Shown here piece after piece: positions 5,519-49,236 of a stretch of DNA of 64,000 nucleotides (the stretch's first letter is position 1; each line of letters begins with the position of its first letter). This stretch comes from a virus. A program made the position numbers and the translations under genes. Location: IMG/VR virus record IMGVR_UViG_3300035182_002389, positions 62,001 to 126,000 of that record, one strand, 5' to 3'. The notes beneath the pieces were generated by a model. It was not told the origin of the DNA and searched no databases. It saw only the letters and a list, made by a program, of their open reading frames with translations.

Positions 5519-7030
5519 ATGAGCGAGCAGATGTCCCTGACGGGGACAGATACAGGCGCGGCCGTGGACGCCGCGCGCACGTGGAGCCCGTACCAAAAGG
5601 CGGTGTTCCACTTCGTGCAGTTCGGAAAAGGGAACGCGGTCGTCCGCGCGGTGCCGGGGTCGGGCAAGACGACCACCATCGTCGAAGCGGCGAAGCTCGT
5701 TCCGCCCGGCAAGAAAGCCGCCTTCGTCGCCTTCAACGGCAAGATCGCCGAAGAGCTGAAGAAGCGTCTGCCTCGGGGCGTTCCGGCAATGACGACGCAC
5801 AGCTTCGGCCTTCGCGCGCTTCGCAACGTGAGGCCGCAGACGCAGGTGAAGCTCGACAAGGGCGACAAGATCGTCCGCAGCATCCTCGAAGGCTGGGACA
5901 ACAACCGGCGCATCGAAGACGTCGAGCAGGACCCGTACGCGTCCTACGACAACTTCCGCCTCGTGCGAAAGGCGGTGGGACTCGCGAAGGGGATGCTGCG
6001 TCACCGTTCGACCTTCCTCGACATGCTCGACGAGTTCGAGCTGGAGTCGAAGAATCTGACGGCCGACCAAATCTCGGAGGCCGTTCTTCGCACGATGCTC
6101 CAGAGCCGCGAAGACGAAGAGACGGCCGACTACGACGACATGATCTGGCTGCCGTGCATCAAGAAGGTGCCGGTCCCGAAGTTCGACTACATCTTCGTCG
6201 ACGAGACGCAGGACCTGAACGCGTCGAAGATCCACCTCGTGCTCAAGGCGGCCGAGGGCGGGAGGGTCATCGCGGTCGGCGACCCGCGCCAGTCGATCTA
6301 CAGCTTCGCCGGCGCCGACGTGAACACGATGGAGCGCGTGCAAGAGGCGCTGAACGCTGAAGTCTTGCCGCTCAGCGTGTCGTACCGCTGCGCAAAGAGC
6401 ATCGTGCGCGAGGCGCAGCGCATCGAGGCGACCATCGAGCACGCGGAGGGCGCCCCCGAGGGCCTCGTGCGCACGATCCGCATCGAGAAGATCGAGGGCG
6501 AGCTGCGCGGCGGCGATTTTGTCGTGAGCCGCTTGAACGCGCCCATCATCTCGCTCTGCTTCCGGCTCATCTCGCAAGGGCGCCCGGCGTACGTGCAAGG
6601 CCGCGAGATCGGCGCGAGCCTCAAGACCACGATCGACAAGAGCAAGGCCGAGACGGTCGAAGACCTCTTGAAGTTCATCGGCGAGTGGCACACCAAAGAG
6701 ATCCAGCGGCTCACGGCCAAGGGCGTCTCGACGGACTCGGTCGACGACCGCCGCGCGTGCATCGAGGCGCTCGCCGAGGAGAAGGCCGACATCTGGGAGG
6801 TCTACGAGGCCATCGACCGCGTGTTCGCGGACGCCGAGGACTCGGCGAAGATTCGCCTCTCCTCGGTCCATCGCGCGAAGGGGCTCGAAGCGAGCCGCGT
6901 CTTCGTTCTTCAGGACACCTTCTACCTCGAAGACACGATTGAGGAAGCGAACTTGGAGTACGTCGCCTTGACTCGCGCGAAGACCGAGCTGGTCTACGTG
7001 CAGGGCGTCAAAATCTACAAGGCGGGATGA
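5519..7030 (+). CDS. Compact superfamily 1A DNA helicase (UvrD/Rep type)
   Basis: 503 residues against roughly 650-730 for UvrD/Rep. Visible motifs in order: I AVPGSGKTTT (44-53), II FVDETQD (about 226-232), III GDPRQSIYSFAG (about 254-265), IV region SYRCAK (about 288), V SSVHRAKGLE (about 448), VI YVALTRAKTELVY (about 481). It should unwind DNA 3'-5' using ATP in replication or repair. The insert domains are shortened. ATG 5519 has GAGGAG upstream; the GTG at 5453 is an unsupported extension. Confidence 0.9.
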   Translation: MSEQMSLTGTDTGAAVDAARTWSPYQKAVFHFVQFGKGNAVVRAVPGSGKTTTIVEAAKLVPPGKKAAFVAFNGKIAEELKKRLPRGVPAMTTHSFGLRALRNVRPQTQVKLDKGDKIVRSILEGWDNNRRIEDVEQDPYASYDNFRLVRKAVGLAKGMLRHRSTFLDMLDEFELESKNLTADQISEAVLRTMLQSREDEETADYDDMIWLPCIKKVPVPKFDYIFVDETQDLNASKIHLVLKAAEGGRVIAVGDPRQSIYSFAGADVNTMERVQEALNAEVLPLSVSYRCAKSIVREAQRIEATIEHAEGAPEGLVRTIRIEKIEGELRGGDFVVSRLNAPIISLCFRLISQGRPAYVQGREIGASLKTTIDKSKAETVEDLLKFIGEWHTKEIQRLTAKGVSTDSVDDRRACIEALAEEKADIWEVYEAIDRVFADAEDSAKIRLSSVHRAKGLEASRVFVLQDTFYLEDTIEEANLEYVALTRAKTELVYVQGVKIYKAG

Positions 7031-7033
7031 CCC

Positions 7034-7438
7034 GTGAAGCCGATTCTGATCCGCACGTTCGAGAACATCACGCTCCGGTACGACTCGCGGTGCATGAACT
7101 GTCGCGAGCGCATCCTTCGCCAGAATCGCGCTTGGCGCGGTCAAGGGCGAGGAAAGATGCTTTGCACGCCGTGCCACACTGAGATCATCGAACAGCTCTA
7201 TCCGAGCACGTGCTCGTGGGCGCTTACGATCGTACACGTGACCATGTCGCCGATGATGCTTACCAAACACCGCCTGGCCGCCGTTCGATGCGGCAAGGCG
7301 CGCGTGTTCCGGCAGGACGAATACGTTTGCGAGCGGGCGAAAGACCACACGGGGCCCCATTCCAAGCTTCTCGATGCGAACACGGTTGCCGACTGGCTCG
7401 ACGCTGAAGAGCAAGCCGTGTCGGCGGAGGTGCCGTGA
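7034..7438 (+). CDS. Cys-rich small protein with HTGPH motif
   Basis: 134 residues from GTG. Residues 20-50 hold CMNCRERI and CTPCHTE, a probable zinc ribbon. Residues 85-110 hold C-x-x...C-x5-HTGPH, a Cys/His motif common in phage proteins of unknown function and repeated in the protein at 12963. Starts 3 nt after the helicase and its stop overlaps the next start, so it is in the same transcript. Confidence 0.65.
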   Translation: MKPILIRTFENITLRYDSRCMNCRERILRQNRAWRGQGRGKMLCTPCHTEIIEQLYPSTCSWALTIVHVTMSPMMLTKHRLAAVRCGKARVFRQDEYVCERAKDHTGPHSKLLDANTVADWLDAEEQAVSAEVP

Positions 7439-7905
7439 TGGGAACCTATCTCCACATCGCGTACGAGGCTTGGGACAAGTCGGAGAACGCGTGGCGCCAC
7501 CACTTCCACAACGAGCAGGACGGCTCGGCCGACAACCACCCGTTCTACACGGCGTTCAAGAACTACCCGCTCCACTTCTTCTTCCGCCTGCTCGCGGACG
7601 GCGAGCCGTACGACACGCCGTCGCTCCTGCCCGCCTACCCGGAAGAGGGTTTCACGTACAAGTGGCCGTACGCGGCCTCACCCGAGACCTGGAACGCGCT
7701 CGGCGGCGAATCCGACGGCGCGTACATCGCGACGCTCGGCGCTATCTTCGCGCGCATGAAGGTCCTCGACGCGCACGTCGGCGAAGAGGTCTGCAAGGTC
7801 ATGCGAGCCCCCGAGGTCGCCCTCTACCGCGAGCGCGTCCTCACCGTCTTCGCGGCCATGGTCCCGATGCCCTCCTACGGGCGTCTGCTTTGGAGGTTCT
7901 CGTGA
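7438..7905 (+). CDS. Hypothetical protein rich in aromatic residues
   Basis: 155 residues. The N-terminal half is very aromatic (YLHIAYEAWDKSENAWRHHF). The frame also allows GTG at 7435. Helices follow (ATLGAIFARMKVLDAHVGEEV). No family recognised. It overlaps both neighbours by 1-4 nt. Confidence 0.6.
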   Translation: MGTYLHIAYEAWDKSENAWRHHFHNEQDGSADNHPFYTAFKNYPLHFFFRLLADGEPYDTPSLLPAYPEEGFTYKWPYAASPETWNALGGESDGAYIATLGAIFARMKVLDAHVGEEVCKVMRAPEVALYRERVLTVFAAMVPMPSYGRLLWRFS

Positions 7906-17873: not shown

Positions 17874-18770
17874 ATGCTCCCGCACGGCACGATCTACCTC
17901 TCGGGCGCGAGGACCCGTACGCTCGACGCGCAGATGCGGTACGCGAACGACCACGCAAACACGTGGGACGAGGTGCCGCCCATCGGCATCTTGCTCACGC
18001 CGAAGACGGCCGACCGTGACGACGATCTGCGCCCCGGGATGCAGAACGTCTACCACTACGTCGGCATCGACAACGGTTGCTTCACGCCGAGCGGACGCGC
18101 GAGGTTCGCTCAGCTCGGAATGAGTGGCTACCTCGCGCTCGGACAGAGGGCCTTGTCGCTCTGGGGCGACCACGTGCTCTTCATCACGGCGCCCGACGTG
18201 CCGGGCGATTGGGCAGGCACCCTGCGTGCGAGCTTGCCTGTGCTCCCCGCCCTGCGAAGGGCGATGCCCCACTGCGCGGCCATCGTGCTTCAAGACGGCG
18301 CGACGCCCGCGAACATCCCGTGGGACGAGATCGATTGGGTCTTCATCGGGGGCTCGACCGCGTGGAAGGTGTCGGCCTTCGCGCACGCATGCTCAAAAGA
18401 GGCCCACCGTCGCAGAAAAGGCGTTCACATGGGGCGCGTGAACTCGCTCCAGCGCCTTCGGGTCGCAAGCGAGTTCGGGTGCACGTCGGCCGACGGGACC
18501 TACTTGCGCGAGGAGATGATCACGGGCGGCCTCGTCGGGCTCAAGAAGGCCTTGAACATCGCCGTCGACCTTCGAGACCCTCGCGATCGCGCGCGCGGGG
18601 CCAAGCTCATCAAGGAGGCGCTCGCCAAGTACGGGCCCGAGACCGTCGAGGGCCGGGCGATTCGCACGCCCATGCAGGCGTACGAGGCGCGCGCCATCGA
18701 GACGATCTTCACCTGGGCCCGCGACTCCTGGGCTCGGGCGGGCGGGCTACGGGCGCTGCACGGACGCTAG
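17874..18770 (+). CDS. DpdA-like DNA/RNA guanine transglycosylase
   Basis: 298 residues. The segment VFIGGSTAWKVSAFAHA (about 157-173) and KGVHMGRVNSLQRLRVASEFGCTSADGTYL (about 183-211) match my memory of phage and bacterial DpdA, which exchange guanine in DNA for a 7-deazaguanine. The TIM-barrel layout also fits: APDVPGD (about 106-112) and VLQDGATPANIPWDEIDW before the GG motif. Start: GGTATCGT, seven bases, ATG, a leaderless arrangement. No folE, queD, queE or queC gene is in the window, so the base precursor would come from the host or elsewhere on the element. It ends in a CTAG overlap with a convergent gene. Confidence 0.7.
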   Translation: MLPHGTIYLSGARTRTLDAQMRYANDHANTWDEVPPIGILLTPKTADRDDDLRPGMQNVYHYVGIDNGCFTPSGRARFAQLGMSGYLALGQRALSLWGDHVLFITAPDVPGDWAGTLRASLPVLPALRRAMPHCAAIVLQDGATPANIPWDEIDWVFIGGSTAWKVSAFAHACSKEAHRRRKGVHMGRVNSLQRLRVASEFGCTSADGTYLREEMITGGLVGLKKALNIAVDLRDPRDRARGAKLIKEALAKYGPETVEGRAIRTPMQAYEARAIETIFTWARDSWARAGGLRALHGR

Positions 18771-19144
18771 ACGGGTGCTCGGCGTCGCCATGGCCACGCT
18801 TCCGGCCCGGGGAGCGTCTGGAGACTCCCAGAGGGCAGCTTGACCCTCCGGCCGAACGTCCACGCGGCAGGGTCCGAAAGTCCGTCCACGAAGCGCTGGA
18901 GGTCCCGCGGCACGCCATAGGAGTAGATCACGACCTCAGCCGGCACCGATCGCCGGCCGTCGAGGATGGCCTCGACGACCCGGTGGGCGCCGTCGAGCAC
19001 GTAGAAGCGGCCCGCGCCGATGGCCGCGAGCTGCACAGGCTCGCCCGCATGCTCGCTCACGAGGCCTCGGCGCACGTGAGCGAGCGTATGGACGATCTTC
19101 TCGTCGGTCTGGTAGAGCCGTCGAAGGCTGATCGAAGACGGCAC
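18767..19144 (-). CDS. ParB-like (DGxHR) domain protein
   Basis: 125 residues from GTG with GAAGAAGAGG upstream. A strand RFYVLDGAHRVVEAI (about 47-61) carries the D-G-A-H-R signature; before it PVQLAAIGAG fits the preceding ParB strand. Convergent with the DpdA-like gene. No helix-turn-helix domain, so this is not a full ParB. The third of the window's ParB-like genes lies at 41030, the fourth at 51161. Confidence 0.6.
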   Translation of the reverse strand: MPSSISLRRLYQTDEKIVHTLAHVRRGLVSEHAGEPVQLAAIGAGRFYVLDGAHRVVEAILDGRRSVPAEVVIYSYGVPRDLQRFVDGLSDPAAWTFGRRVKLPSGSLQTLPGPEAWPWRRRAPV

Positions 19145-19154
19145 AGGCAACCTC

Positions 19155-19385
19155 TTCTTCCCCGTTCCCGTTCCCGTTCCCGTTCCCGTTCCCAGCGCGC
19201 CAAAGGCGCGCGTTCCCGTTCCCGTTCCCGTTCCCGTTCCCGTTCCCGTTCCCGTTCCCGTTCCCAGCGCACCAAAGGCGCGCGTTCCCGTTCCCGACTC
19301 CCGAGCGAGACGAGATCGGGCAGCGGGAACGCTCGCTTCGCGAGCTGGAACGGGAACGCTCGCTTTGCTCGCTGGAACGAGGACG
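19155..19385. repeat. Repeat family B, copy 1: GTTCCC arrays
   Basis: Two tandem arrays of GTTCCC units (about 19157-19195 and 19208-19265) separated by the palindromic CGCGCCAAAGGCGCG, then degenerate GGGAACGCTCGC(TT)GCGAGC blocks. 230 bp without a gene. Arrays of a 6-bp unit can expand by slippage. Related copies at 19957, 50998, 51517 and 62524. Confidence 0.85.
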
Positions 19386-21433: not shown

Positions 21434-22564
21434 TCAGACGAGCGTGCCGTCGGCGTAGACCCACGCCGTGCCATTCCACCAGATCGGTTTGCCGTTGGCT
21501 CCGAGGGAGGTGTCGAAGTACGGCAGGCCGATGTTCTGCCCCGCGGCGAGAGGCGGACGCTGCGCAGTCGGACCCGCGAACGAGATGCCGCCCGGCAGGT
21601 TCACGAGCGTGCCCGTGAAGCCCACGGTCGGCGGGGTCACCGGCGAAGAGGTGCCGATGATCCAGAGCTGCGTCGTGCCGTCGCCCGAGACGACGTTTGC
21701 GGGAGACTGGCCGGGATTCAGCAGCGAGAGGATGCCGATGGCGTTCGGCGCGATGGCGATGATCGGGGCCGTCGAACCTGGATCGATCACGGAGGCGTTG
21801 TACAGCGCGACGATGACGCCGGGCCCGCCTCCCGTGTTCGGGGCATCCATCAGCGCCCGGCTCCCGAGGTTGCTCAGCGCCGCGCCAAGCTGGAGCACGA
21901 GCGCAGGAGGTTCGGCGGGGTTCGGCGCGTCGAAGGCGAAGGTTGCGAGCGAGGAGGGGATTCCTCGCACGGTCATCGAACCGACGATGCTGCTCAGGTT
22001 GCGAAGCTGCACGCCTTCGGGCGCTTCGAGCCGGTTCATGTCGGGGTTGCTGAAGGCCACCGACCGAAGGGTCGCGAGCTTCATGTCGTAGACGCCGAGC
22101 GGAATCGAGAACGGTCCCGACGTGACGCAGTCGATCCAGACGTCGATGGGCGAGGCGCTGAGGGCGATGAGGTCCATGACCTCGCCCCAGGTGTGCGCGT
22201 AACGAACGTCGGTCGGCGGCGCGTCCGGCTTGAAGATGATGCTGACCGGGTTCTCGTCGATCGCAGGAGCGTCCACGATACTCGTGCGAATCCACCGACC
22301 GATGCCCGTCGCATCGTGCGAAGTGGCCTGCTTTGCGCACAGGGCGCCCATCGCATCGCGTGCTTGCGGACCGTTGCAGGTCGACAGGACGTTGACGCCC
22401 GTGACCGCCGGCGCCGGGACGTGGAAGCTCAACCTATAGTAGCGTTCGAGGCTCTCCACGTGCGCGAGGCAGCCATCTTCGAGGCCGCTCGTGTCCGTGT
22501 TCTGAAGATCGCACGTCGTCTCGACGCGCAGAAATCCCGGGAACGGATTGTAGCCTTCCGTCAT
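21434..22564 (-). CDS. Spike/fibre-like protein, paralog pair 1 (short copy)
   Basis: 376 residues. It starts MTEGYNPFPGF, followed by DLQNTDTSGLEDGCLAHV and RYYRLSFHVPAP. The next gene upstream (22631-24220) shares this N-terminus almost word for word, so the N-terminal 90 residues are a common attachment module. The remainder is beta-rich with Asn and Gly turns. A start at 22573 (MVFMTEG) is possible and fits the TAGATC box better; the paralog supports 22564. Probable exposed structural protein or adhesin. Confidence 0.65.
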   Translation of the reverse strand: MTEGYNPFPGFLRVETTCDLQNTDTSGLEDGCLAHVESLERYYRLSFHVPAPAVTGVNVLSTCNGPQARDAMGALCAKQATSHDATGIGRWIRTSIVDAPAIDENPVSIIFKPDAPPTDVRYAHTWGEVMDLIALSASPIDVWIDCVTSGPFSIPLGVYDMKLATLRSVAFSNPDMNRLEAPEGVQLRNLSSIVGSMTVRGIPSSLATFAFDAPNPAEPPALVLQLGAALSNLGSRALMDAPNTGGGPGVIVALYNASVIDPGSTAPIIAIAPNAIGILSLLNPGQSPANVVSGDGTTQLWIIGTSSPVTPPTVGFTGTLVNLPGGISFAGPTAQRPPLAAGQNIGLPYFDTSLGANGKPIWWNGTAWVYADGTLV

Positions 22565-22600
22565 GAAGACCATCGTCCTCGATCTACGCGGGCGAGACAA

Positions 22601-22615
22601 GGCTTACGCCAAGTC
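22601..22615. promoter_or_regulatory. Palindrome, upstream of 22564 gene
   Basis: GGCTTACGCCAAGTC between two spike-like genes on the minus strand, 37 bases from the downstream start. Confidence 0.5.
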
Positions 22616-22630
22616 TCACCCGGCCCAGGT

Positions 22631-24220
22631 CTACTTCGACCAGACCTGCCAGTAGACCGTCTGCGCCGCGTCCGCCGCCCCGCCCTTGCTCGTGATCGTG
22701 AAACTGACGCCGGCATTCACGTTCGAGAGGTAGAGAAAGCCCGTCGGCGCGACGCCGTTCGACTGGTAGCTGTACGTGACCGGCGTGCTGCCGCTGATTG
22801 CGGGAAGAAGAACGGTGAGCGCGCCGGCGCCATCCAGGGGGCCCTCACCGCTCGCAAGCGGTACGAGCGCCTTGAGCGCGTCGATTGCGTTCTGCACCGA
22901 TCCGCCAGGGCCGGTGAACGTGGGGAAGAGCACGGGCTGACCGGCAAGGACCGTCGCCCCAGGCGCCGGCGCACCCGGCGAGTTCAGGGCGCGCAGCTCG
23001 ATGTTCTCGCTGTCGAGGATCGTGACCACCGCGTAGCTGCCGCCACCAATCCCGATGAAGTCGCCCACGTGCAGGCACTGCGTCGAGTCGAACTTCGGCG
23101 TGATGGTCGACCAGAAGGCGGGCTGCACGAACGGCGTGATGAGATTCGCTTTGACCAGCGTGGGGGTGTGGGCCGCGTCGTCGTACGAGGCCTGCACGGC
23201 CTGGCTCAGCGTCGCCGCGAACCCGAACGGGCCCTGCCACGCGGGCTGGTTCGGCACGCCGTAGAACCACGTCGAGTCGTAGATGAAGTAGAGCCCAGCA
23301 CCCGGAGGACCCTTGAACGTGTTGTCGTAGCTGGTCGGTCCGAACGCAGGACCTGTCGAGCTGAACGCGATGAAACCGATGCCCGCGCCCGGCGCCGGTC
23401 CGCACTCGACGATCGGGATCGGGAACGAGCCGATGTCGAATGCAAGGTCGTTGAAGGACGCGACGAGGACGCCGCCTTGCGGCAAGTAGAGGCCAGAACG
23501 CGCGGTCGTCGCGACATTCTGGAGCCGAGCGCCTCTTGAGAAGGTGAGCAGGTTCGCGTCGTCCTGGATGATGCAGGGGCCCGTGCGCGCGTCGAGCTGA
23601 ATGACCAGGCCGTCTGTCACCTCGTAGAGATTTCGGATGACTCCGCCGAGGGGCTGGCGGAGGATCAGGTTCGGCGAGACGCCGCTCGGGCCCGTCGGGA
23701 TGTTCGCGCCCGCGAGGGTGAGGCGACCTTGGCCGTCCATCGGCACGGTCCACGGCGCGGGGGTCGCGGGCGGCATGAGCGAGTCGTCGACCTCGACGAT
23801 CAAGGCTCCGTTCGCGAGCGCAACCTGCGCCGCGACCTCGACGTCGGTCGCGAAGACATTGCCCTCGCTCACGCCGTTCGGGCGGTAGATGATCGTGCCC
23901 GAGCCCGAGGGCGAAGCTGTCGAGTCGAGGATCGAGGTGCGCACCCACCGCCCGATGCCGGTCGGGCTGTGCGCGCTCTGCCCCGGCTGCACGCAGGGGG
24001 CTCCGAACGCGTCGAGCCCGTCGGGCCCGTTCCAGGTCGAGAGCACGTTGACGCCGTCGACCGCGGGCGCGGGGACCTTCGTGCTCAGGCGGTAAAACCG
24101 GCCCGTGTCGACCACATATGCGAGGCAGCCCTCTTCGAGCCCGTCGGTCGACGAGTTCTGAAGCTCGCACGTCGTGGGCGCGGTGAGAAAGCCCGGGAAC
24201 GGGTTGTAGCCTTCGGTCAT
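22631..24220 (-). CDS. Spike/fibre-like protein, paralog pair 1 (long copy)
   Basis: 529 residues. The N-terminus MTEGYNPFPGFL...TTCELQN...LEEGCLAYV repeats that of the 376-residue neighbour; then a long beta-rich body with repeated short strands and a small beta domain at the C-terminus (VTYSYQSNGVAPTGFLYLSNVNAGVSFTI). Start fixed by a leaderless arrangement: GTGTACGCT, seven bases, ATG. Shared N-terminus with different bodies suggests alternative receptor-binding proteins. Confidence 0.65.
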   Translation of the reverse strand: MTEGYNPFPGFLTAPTTCELQNSSTDGLEEGCLAYVVDTGRFYRLSTKVPAPAVDGVNVLSTWNGPDGLDAFGAPCVQPGQSAHSPTGIGRWVRTSILDSTASPSGSGTIIYRPNGVSEGNVFATDVEVAAQVALANGALIVEVDDSLMPPATPAPWTVPMDGQGRLTLAGANIPTGPSGVSPNLILRQPLGGVIRNLYEVTDGLVIQLDARTGPCIIQDDANLLTFSRGARLQNVATTARSGLYLPQGGVLVASFNDLAFDIGSFPIPIVECGPAPGAGIGFIAFSSTGPAFGPTSYDNTFKGPPGAGLYFIYDSTWFYGVPNQPAWQGPFGFAATLSQAVQASYDDAAHTPTLVKANLITPFVQPAFWSTITPKFDSTQCLHVGDFIGIGGGSYAVVTILDSENIELRALNSPGAPAPGATVLAGQPVLFPTFTGPGGSVQNAIDALKALVPLASGEGPLDGAGALTVLLPAISGSTPVTYSYQSNGVAPTGFLYLSNVNAGVSFTITSKGGAADAAQTVYWQVWSK

Positions 24221-48663: not shown

Positions 48664-49236
48664 TCAGCCCTGTGCGGTGTTGGAGGCCCAGAGGACTTCC
48701 TGCGACGGACCGTAGACGACGAGGTTGCCGTCGTCCTGCATCGCGAGGAGCGCGCCGGGATGGCCGTCTGTCCCGGTTGCCCAAAGGGCGGCTCCCGCGT
48801 CGTTGTAGACGACCGCATTGCCGTCCTCTTGCATGATGAGGAACGACTTTCCGTCGCTCCGCGTGTCCGAACTCCACAGCGCCGCGCTGCCTGCGTAGAG
48901 CACGAGGTTGCCGTCCGACTGCATCGTCAGGTGGTAGGCCCCGTTGCAGGAGGCCATGGTGCTGCCGTTGTTCACCCTTTGCATCGCCGAGATGTGCGCG
49001 CCGCCGCCCGTGCAGTACGGGTTCGTCGGCACGCCCGGCACGGGACCGGCCGGCGCAGGGGCCGGCGCAGGGGCCGGCGCAGGGGCCGGCGCGGGAGCCG
49101 GCGCAGGGGCGCTGAGCACAATCCTCTTCGTGATCGAGGGCATGGCCACGAGCGCGGGCTTCTTGTTCTTCGAGTGCAGGTAGTACCCGACGACCGCGAG
49201 CGCCACGCCACCGCCGACGAGGTAGGAGGTCTTCAT
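48664..49236 (-). CDS. Single-anchor membrane lectin (B-type mannose-binding fold)
   Basis: 190 residues. Residues 3-20 (TSYLVGGGVALAVVGYYL) form the membrane helix, a (PA)n linker spans about 43-65, and the last 110 residues are a bulb-lectin domain with three Q-x-D-x-N-x-V-x-Y signatures: QSDGNLVLY, QEDGNAVVY, QDDGNLVVY. Each binds one mannose-type sugar in plant and bacterial homologs. Start at 49236 chosen because TACGAT lies seven bases upstream; the ATG at 49245 overlaps that box. A carbohydrate-binding, surface-exposed role is likely. Confidence 0.8.
   Translation of the reverse strand: MKTSYLVGGGVALAVVGYYLHSKNKKPALVAMPSITKRIVLSAPAPAPAPAPAPAPAPAPAPAGPVPGVPTNPYCTGGGAHISAMQRVNNGSTMASCNGAYHLTMQSDGNLVLYAGSAALWSSDTRSDGKSFLIMQEDGNAVVYNDAGAALWATGTDGHPGALLAMQDDGNLVVYGPSQEVLWASNTAQG

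Follow-up and report, generated by a model that had tools for sequence, protein, structure and literature searches.

Canonical phage DpdA (the 9g/CAjan type, PHROG 887 and 7068) is a phage-borne enzyme with a fold resembling that of tRNA-guanine transglycosylase (TGT), a length of about 300 aa and a genomic position beside preQ0-synthesis genes. Such genes are lacking in the DpdA-only phages, which form the third, largest and least understood group in a survey of 2019 and number 76 (Hutinet 2019, PMC6884629). In Mycobacterium phage Orion, the single mycobacterial example tested, 7-deazaguanine was undetectable, showing that DpdA by itself does not guarantee modification, and in phage 7-11 it amounted to ~0.02% of G (PMC6884629). 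Pantoea phage MED16, which carries dpdA alone, contains dADG at ~0.13% of G (PMC8306585). The transporter YhhQ is a member of the QPTR/COG1738 family. Transport of preQ0 and preQ1 has been demonstrated for the E. coli protein (PMC5372724), and Vut_1/COG1738 transporters supply the tRNA queuosine synthesis of bacteria, where Vut_1-TGT fusions occur (PMC11130926). YhhQ is found in ~9% of bacterial dpd islands (PMC11888242), while EC151 and Seuratvirus phages encode a preQ0 transporter alongside full synthesis (PMC8310023). Among phages, YhhQ did not correlate with any of the surveyed groups (PMC6884629).

The locus described here resembles the DpdA-only phages in that a DpdA-like gene is present without preQ0 genes. 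The window, i.e. the entire 64,000-nt stretch of DNA analysed, covers positions 62001-126000 of a 202,518-bp IMG/VR virus record (65% G+C) that is listed as 'linear' and may be incomplete, which limits calls of absence. As claimed by the original prediction, it contains an open reading frame with the motifs GGSTAWK and HMGRVNSLQRL...DGTYL, which starts with ATG and encodes the protein P0001 (Table 1). P0001 yields no useful match in Pfam or NCBIfam and matches PHROG 15826 (E 8.3e-42), whose label is 'unknown function'; an HMM of the short family delimited below recovers it from the record with E 2.8e-57. A codon-usage gene model retains the frame as the final gene of a plus-strand run that converges with minus-strand genes. 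Together with the PHROG match, the phage homologues and the at least 528 viral loci that encode the family (found with an alignment query; P0001 alone matched none of these contigs), this argues for a real gene and not a chance frame. The GNAT-family acetyltransferase encoded upstream is not among the conserved neighbours of short-family relatives in the clustering of neighbouring ORFs, and no role in base modification is therefore claimed for it. The small convergent gene downstream was considered as a DpdB/ParB partner and dropped, as it has no Pfam match. A helicase at window positions 5519-7030 showed distant matches only.

Table 1. Features at and around the P0001 gene, in window coordinates.
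Feature	Position	Strand	Basis
Short DpdA-like (TGT-superfamily) transglycosylase, P0001, 298 aa	17874..18770	+	PHROG 15826, AF2 model, profile-profile comparison
D66 codon, IDNG motif, predicted active-site Asp	18069..18071	+	58/58; pairs with Asp of DSGAF in canonical DpdA
D108 codon, APDVPGD motif, predicted base-binding Asp	18195..18197	+	58/58; pairs with canonical LDVIGD
Q140 codon (QDG), predicted base-binding position	18291..18293	+	58/58 invariant
G159-G160 codons, GGSTAWK	18348..18353	+	58/58; pairs with GG of canonical DpdA
H185-N190 codons (HMGRVN)	18426..18443	+	H185, G187, R188, N190 58/58; H185 pairs with His of LHGFG
D207-G208 codons (SADGT), D207 predicted nucleophile	18492..18497	+	58/58; pairs with Asp of canonical SVDS
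C-terminal extension, residues 214-298, mostly helical	18513..18767	+	Not found in other members by phmmer among the loci fetched
GNAT-family acetyltransferase, ~30 bp upstream of the P0001 gene	17418..17843	+	PF00583 E 6.8e-8
Small convergent gene, ParB-like by eye	18767..19144	-	PHROG 17560 E 0.0079 only

The proposal that this gene encodes a DpdA-type transglycosylase stands at the level of the superfamily, on the evidence of fold and profile comparison, and falls for canonical DpdA: PHROG 15826 is the only PHROG that P0001 matches, PHROG 887 and 7068 remaining unmatched, and a canonical-DpdA HMM gives it 0.8 bits. The AF2 model of P0001 (pLDDT 87.3, pTM 0.83) aligns best to a tRNA-guanine transglycosylase (Z 15.8, rmsd 5.1, 252 residues). 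A relative of 201 aa, modelled with pLDDT 93.6 and pTM 0.90, superposes on tRNA-guanine transglycosylase over 193 of its 201 residues (Z 15.6, rmsd 2.8), and TGT is found in every entry among the best 50 structural alignments of both models. Foldseek matches include 7ui4, the solved DNA preQ0 insertase DpdA, and other TIM barrels (ribulose-phosphate epimerase, aldolases) with similar scores, so the fold alone would not settle the assignment. Profile-profile alignment of the short family with 95 canonical phage DpdA sequences using hhalign gives E 1.6e-8 with the motifs in register. The paired motifs are D-[S/N]-G (D66NG facing DSGAF), P/L-D-V-x-G-D (P-D108-V-x-G-D facing LDVIGD), GG (facing GG), His (H185 facing the His of LHGFG) and the catalytic Asp (D207 facing the Asp of SVDS). 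PF01702 (TGT) does not match P0001, hhalign with the single E. coli TGT sequence does not match the short family, and a sequence search against PDB chains returned no match; the link to TGT is thus carried by structure and by canonical DpdA. P0001 is a TGT/DpdA-superfamily protein of a separate short family and not a canonical DpdA. The core of this family is ~200 aa long, compared with ~300 aa for canonical DpdA, whose profiles miss it.

Fourteen positions are invariant in 58 of 58 family sequences, and P0001 has all 14; among them are D66, P107-D108, Q140, GG159-160, H185, G187, R188, N190 and D207-G208. By its alignment with canonical DpdA, D207 is the probable nucleophile of P0001, and Q140 presumably corresponds to Gln203 of TGT. 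In tRNA-type TGTs, a CxCxxC...H zinc site lies C-terminal to the nucleophile. This site is missing in P0001, which has no Cys after residue 203. The bacterial and archaeal TGTs (PF01702) are the closest solved fold, and relative to them P0001 lacks both the Pfam match and the zinc motif and represents the core only; the short family appears to have lost the zinc-binding part and to have kept a core of about 200 aa. What follows the core in P0001 is particular to this protein: residues 214-298 are modelled mostly as helices, form an extra C-terminal region of ~85 aa in comparison to the SEA-PHAGES relatives and, used as a phmmer query, matched only themselves among all loci fetched.

Homologues of P0001 were detected in 23 phage records. 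Those of isolated phages include ReqiPine5 gp03, Sonali gp81, Majeke gp54, Aoka gp40 and R6L gp10, and further ones occur in two Synechococcus phages, SHIN8 and R29Z. Four SEA-PHAGES proteins with 37-38% identity to P0001 (Majeke gp54, StevieRay gp54, Aoka gp40 and Sonali gp81) are labelled 'DpdA-like tRNA-guanine transglycosylase'. The DpdA of Orion is absent from the homologues found for P0001, and Orion, 7-11 and MED16 therefore look like carriers of other DpdA types. Sonali, SHIN8 and R29Z encode the short enzyme together with a canonical DpdA (PHROG 887) and preQ0 genes, which separates the two families and hints that their roles are not simply interchangeable. The annotation of Escherichia phage SHIN8 splits the short gene into two ORFs that overlap (locus L015, 4875-5467), suggesting a frameshift in that copy.

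Canonical DpdA lies beside preQ0-synthesis genes, whereas the short family lies beside a transporter. All ORFs flanking the short gene were clustered into families for 88 viral loci, a non-random sample that combines the best 80 matches of one query with eight phage records, counts Sonali and ReqiPine5 in both sets, includes many fragmentary contigs and derives from a seed alignment that took in transporter-bearing phages; in 58 of these 88 loci a transporter family on the same strand adjoins the short gene. It is positioned upstream in 34 cases and downstream in 19 (not classed, 5), and the two genes usually overlap or are separated by at most 50 bp. PF02592 (Vut_1, the YhhQ/QPTR family of queuosine-precursor transporters) matches 29 of the 29 transporter members scanned, and by this family membership the phage proteins probably transport preQ0/preQ1. 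After dereplication at 80%, the transporter is present in 37 of 63 viral clusters. On the tree its presence requires at least 17 changes, at least seven of which are forced by well-supported branches: the pairing has arisen or disappeared repeatedly. As an intended unbiased check on the neighbour counts, the Vut_1 Pfam model was applied to whole records, with matches in 28 of 46 that carry the short enzyme versus 3 of 46 that carry canonical DpdA (p 3.0e-8). The transporter is less frequent (14/80) beside the remoter family members that bacterial genomes encode. In the SEA-PHAGES relatives Vut_1 is encoded upstream in all but Sonali, while the copy in the window has none.

Synthesis genes are distributed in the opposite way. 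They accompany 12 of the 30 loci without the transporter versus 3 of the 58 with it (p 9e-5; dereplicated, 9/25 versus 1/37, p 7e-4), and 70 of the 88 viral loci have a transporter or preQ0-synthesis genes. For canonical DpdA the figure is 72 of 80 loci with preQ0-synthesis genes, which is biased upward because the seeds took in phages with Que genes. In the locus next to P0001 in the tree (L088), QueC overlaps the short gene. DNA methylases, RusA and SSB were read by eye near the short gene in several loci, some of them being annotated. Since the relatives adjoin an importer in most of the sampled viral loci, these phages probably import the base instead of making it. The same logic of import followed by exchange applies where QPTR/COG1738 (YhhQ) occurs with bacterial TGTs or dpd islands, but the share of ~9% in bacterial dpd islands contrasts with 58 of 88 for the viral short-family loci, and the survey that found YhhQ uncorrelated with phage groups contrasts with a transporter tied tightly to the short family here. 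This tight linkage is a new finding; in the literature covered, which is partial, no description of this family or of its association with a transporter was found, and the subfamily may already be named.

The window phage itself has neither arrangement. The absence of folE, queD, queE and queC noted for the 64 kb holds and applies to all 202,518 bp of the record: TGT PF01702, QueC PF06508, PTPS/QueD PF01242, GTP_cyclohydroI PF01227 and Radical_SAM PF04055 had no match in it, nor did the transporter families QueT PF06177 and Vut_1 PF02592, and local profiles for QueC, QueD, QueE, FolE, canonical DpdA and the phage Vut_1 transporter gave nothing convincing. The suggestion that precursor genes lie elsewhere in the genome is thus unsupported by Pfam and local-profile searches of the other 138 kb of the record. 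Its alternative, the use of a base from the host or from outside, fits the family, in which most relatives adjoin a YhhQ-type transporter, and not directly the window phage, which lacks one. Given a record without transporter and synthesis genes, P0001 would draw on the preQ0/preQ1 pool of its host or on a host transporter. Provided that the record is complete, the window phage would accordingly carry an orphan short enzyme that has its predicted active-site residues intact and is supplied by the host.

Taken together, the short family is best read as a salvage-fed base exchanger that replaces guanine in phage DNA by a free 7-deazaguanine, with the window phage depending on its host; we assign this reading a probability of roughly 60%. 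A free 7-deazaguanine would enter the cell pool by import or by host synthesis. D207 would then attack a DNA guanosine at C1' and become covalently bound there as guanine leaves, and the incoming 7-deazaguanine (preQ0 or a close relative) would be joined at the vacated site, where the modified base may hide sites from host nucleases. In most viral relatives the base would be supplied by the importer and in some others by preQ0-synthesis genes; in the window phage, a host pool of preQ0/preQ1 or a host transporter would take this part, and, as its record has neither gene, function would depend on the host. The analysis establishes the gene, its family, fold and conserved residues, the genomic linkage and the lack of supply genes in the record. 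The DNA target, the preQ0-type substrate, the exchange chemistry and the protective role, including the avoidance of restriction proposed in the original prediction, are putative.

DNA is favoured over tRNA as the target since profile comparison places the short family closest to DNA-inserting DpdAs and the neighbours include genes of DNA metabolism and methylation. The phage could instead import preQ0, preQ1 or queuine for insertion into GUN anticodons and tune translation, as do YhhQ and TGT in bacteria. The tRNA TGTs being the closest solved folds and Vut_1/COG1738 feeding tRNA queuosine synthesis in bacteria, sometimes as a fusion to TGT (PMC11130926), would agree with this; P0001, however, is unmatched by PF01702, lacks a CxCxxC...H zinc site C-terminal to its catalytic region and, at the profile level, resembles DNA-type DpdA and not E. 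coli TGT, which together with the DNA-modification and DNA-metabolism genes nearby makes a tRNA target unlikely. If DNA is the target, the outcome may still differ, in the form of rare site-specific insertion, a different incoming base or the removal of 7-deazaguanine placed by others. The retention of the short enzyme beside canonical DpdA in some phages would suit such a role, as would the PAPS-reductase-like genes that ReqiPine5 (locus L009, 4589-5506) and R6L (L012, 6337-7380), which are unrelated to each other, carry close to the short gene. The usual partner is nevertheless a Vut_1 importer or preQ0 synthesis, which fits 7-deazaguanine insertion best, and we regard these other outcomes as very improbable.

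A further explanation leaves the enzyme intact and the DNA of the window phage normally unmodified for want of precursor, making the gene a relic or a conditional one. Supply genes were not found in the record, as this would lead one to expect, but the reading frame and all invariant residues are kept in P0001, and preQ0 is made by many bacteria. The described phages point in both directions, with 7-deazaguanine undetectable in the DpdA-only Orion and scarce in 7-11 (PMC6884629) but dADG present in MED16 with dpdA alone (PMC8306585). On balance, a relic or conditional gene appears quite unlikely.

The salvage-fed exchanger can be extended to a more tentative proposal, to which we give somewhat less than even odds: an importer and a minimal DpdA-like enzyme would form a widespread two-gene phage cassette through which DNA modification depends on scavenged 7-deazaguanine, even in hosts such as mycobacteria that are unable to make the base, with the jumbo phage of the window as a streamlined user wholly reliant on its host. 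The same phage would then be modified or unmodified according to the supply in its surroundings, and laboratory medium could mask the modification. An importer-tied short DpdA family would explain phage DNA modification without base synthesis, and a family that is unlabelled in hundreds of viral contigs would gain a testable function. A ready comparison is offered by Mycobacterium phages StevieRay and Brusacoram, which belong to one species and form a natural deletion pair. In StevieRay the transporter (gp53) is intact and the short DpdA (gp54) is present, whereas in Brusacoram the first 60 transporter residues are the same, the protein is then truncated and the short DpdA is absent. As the loss of two neighbours can be a single deletion, the pair serves as a test system and not as independent evidence of linkage.

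Several observations were made alongside. Upstream of the short gene in L088 (~7200-7810), an ORF reads as a radical-SAM protein (CPKHCPWC; CxxxCxxC by eye), and ORFs from its cluster are also found close to the short gene in L040, L044, L086, L089 and L090. Plasmids carry the short family too (171 records, of which 135 are from Pseudomonas). On pQBR103 (L258, 4776-5654) the short gene adjoins a UvrD-type helicase and its vicinity lacks a transporter, and on an Azospirillum plasmid (L260) a transporter lies directly downstream of it. In Vibrio phage PS25B.1 (L263, 2232-3465), a canonical-type DpdA of 255 aa overlaps an annotated preQ0 transporter gene, so transporter pairing occurs outside the short family too.

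Within the record, (GGGAAC)n hexamer repeats are present at window positions 19161-19296 and at other intergenic sites. The 12-mer GGGAACGGGAAC has 50 sites in the 202-kb record, 44 of which are intergenic, compared with an intergenic share of ~12.5%. A tRNA-Pro (CGG) call at 49005-49110 overlaps a 12-bp tandem repeat (49048-49110) and may be a repeat artefact or an unusual tRNA. At 21434-24220 on the minus strand, two neighbouring proteins, the 529-aa copy of which has no PHROG match, share a nearly identical start (MTEGYNPFPGFL) and are thus likely tandem paralogues.
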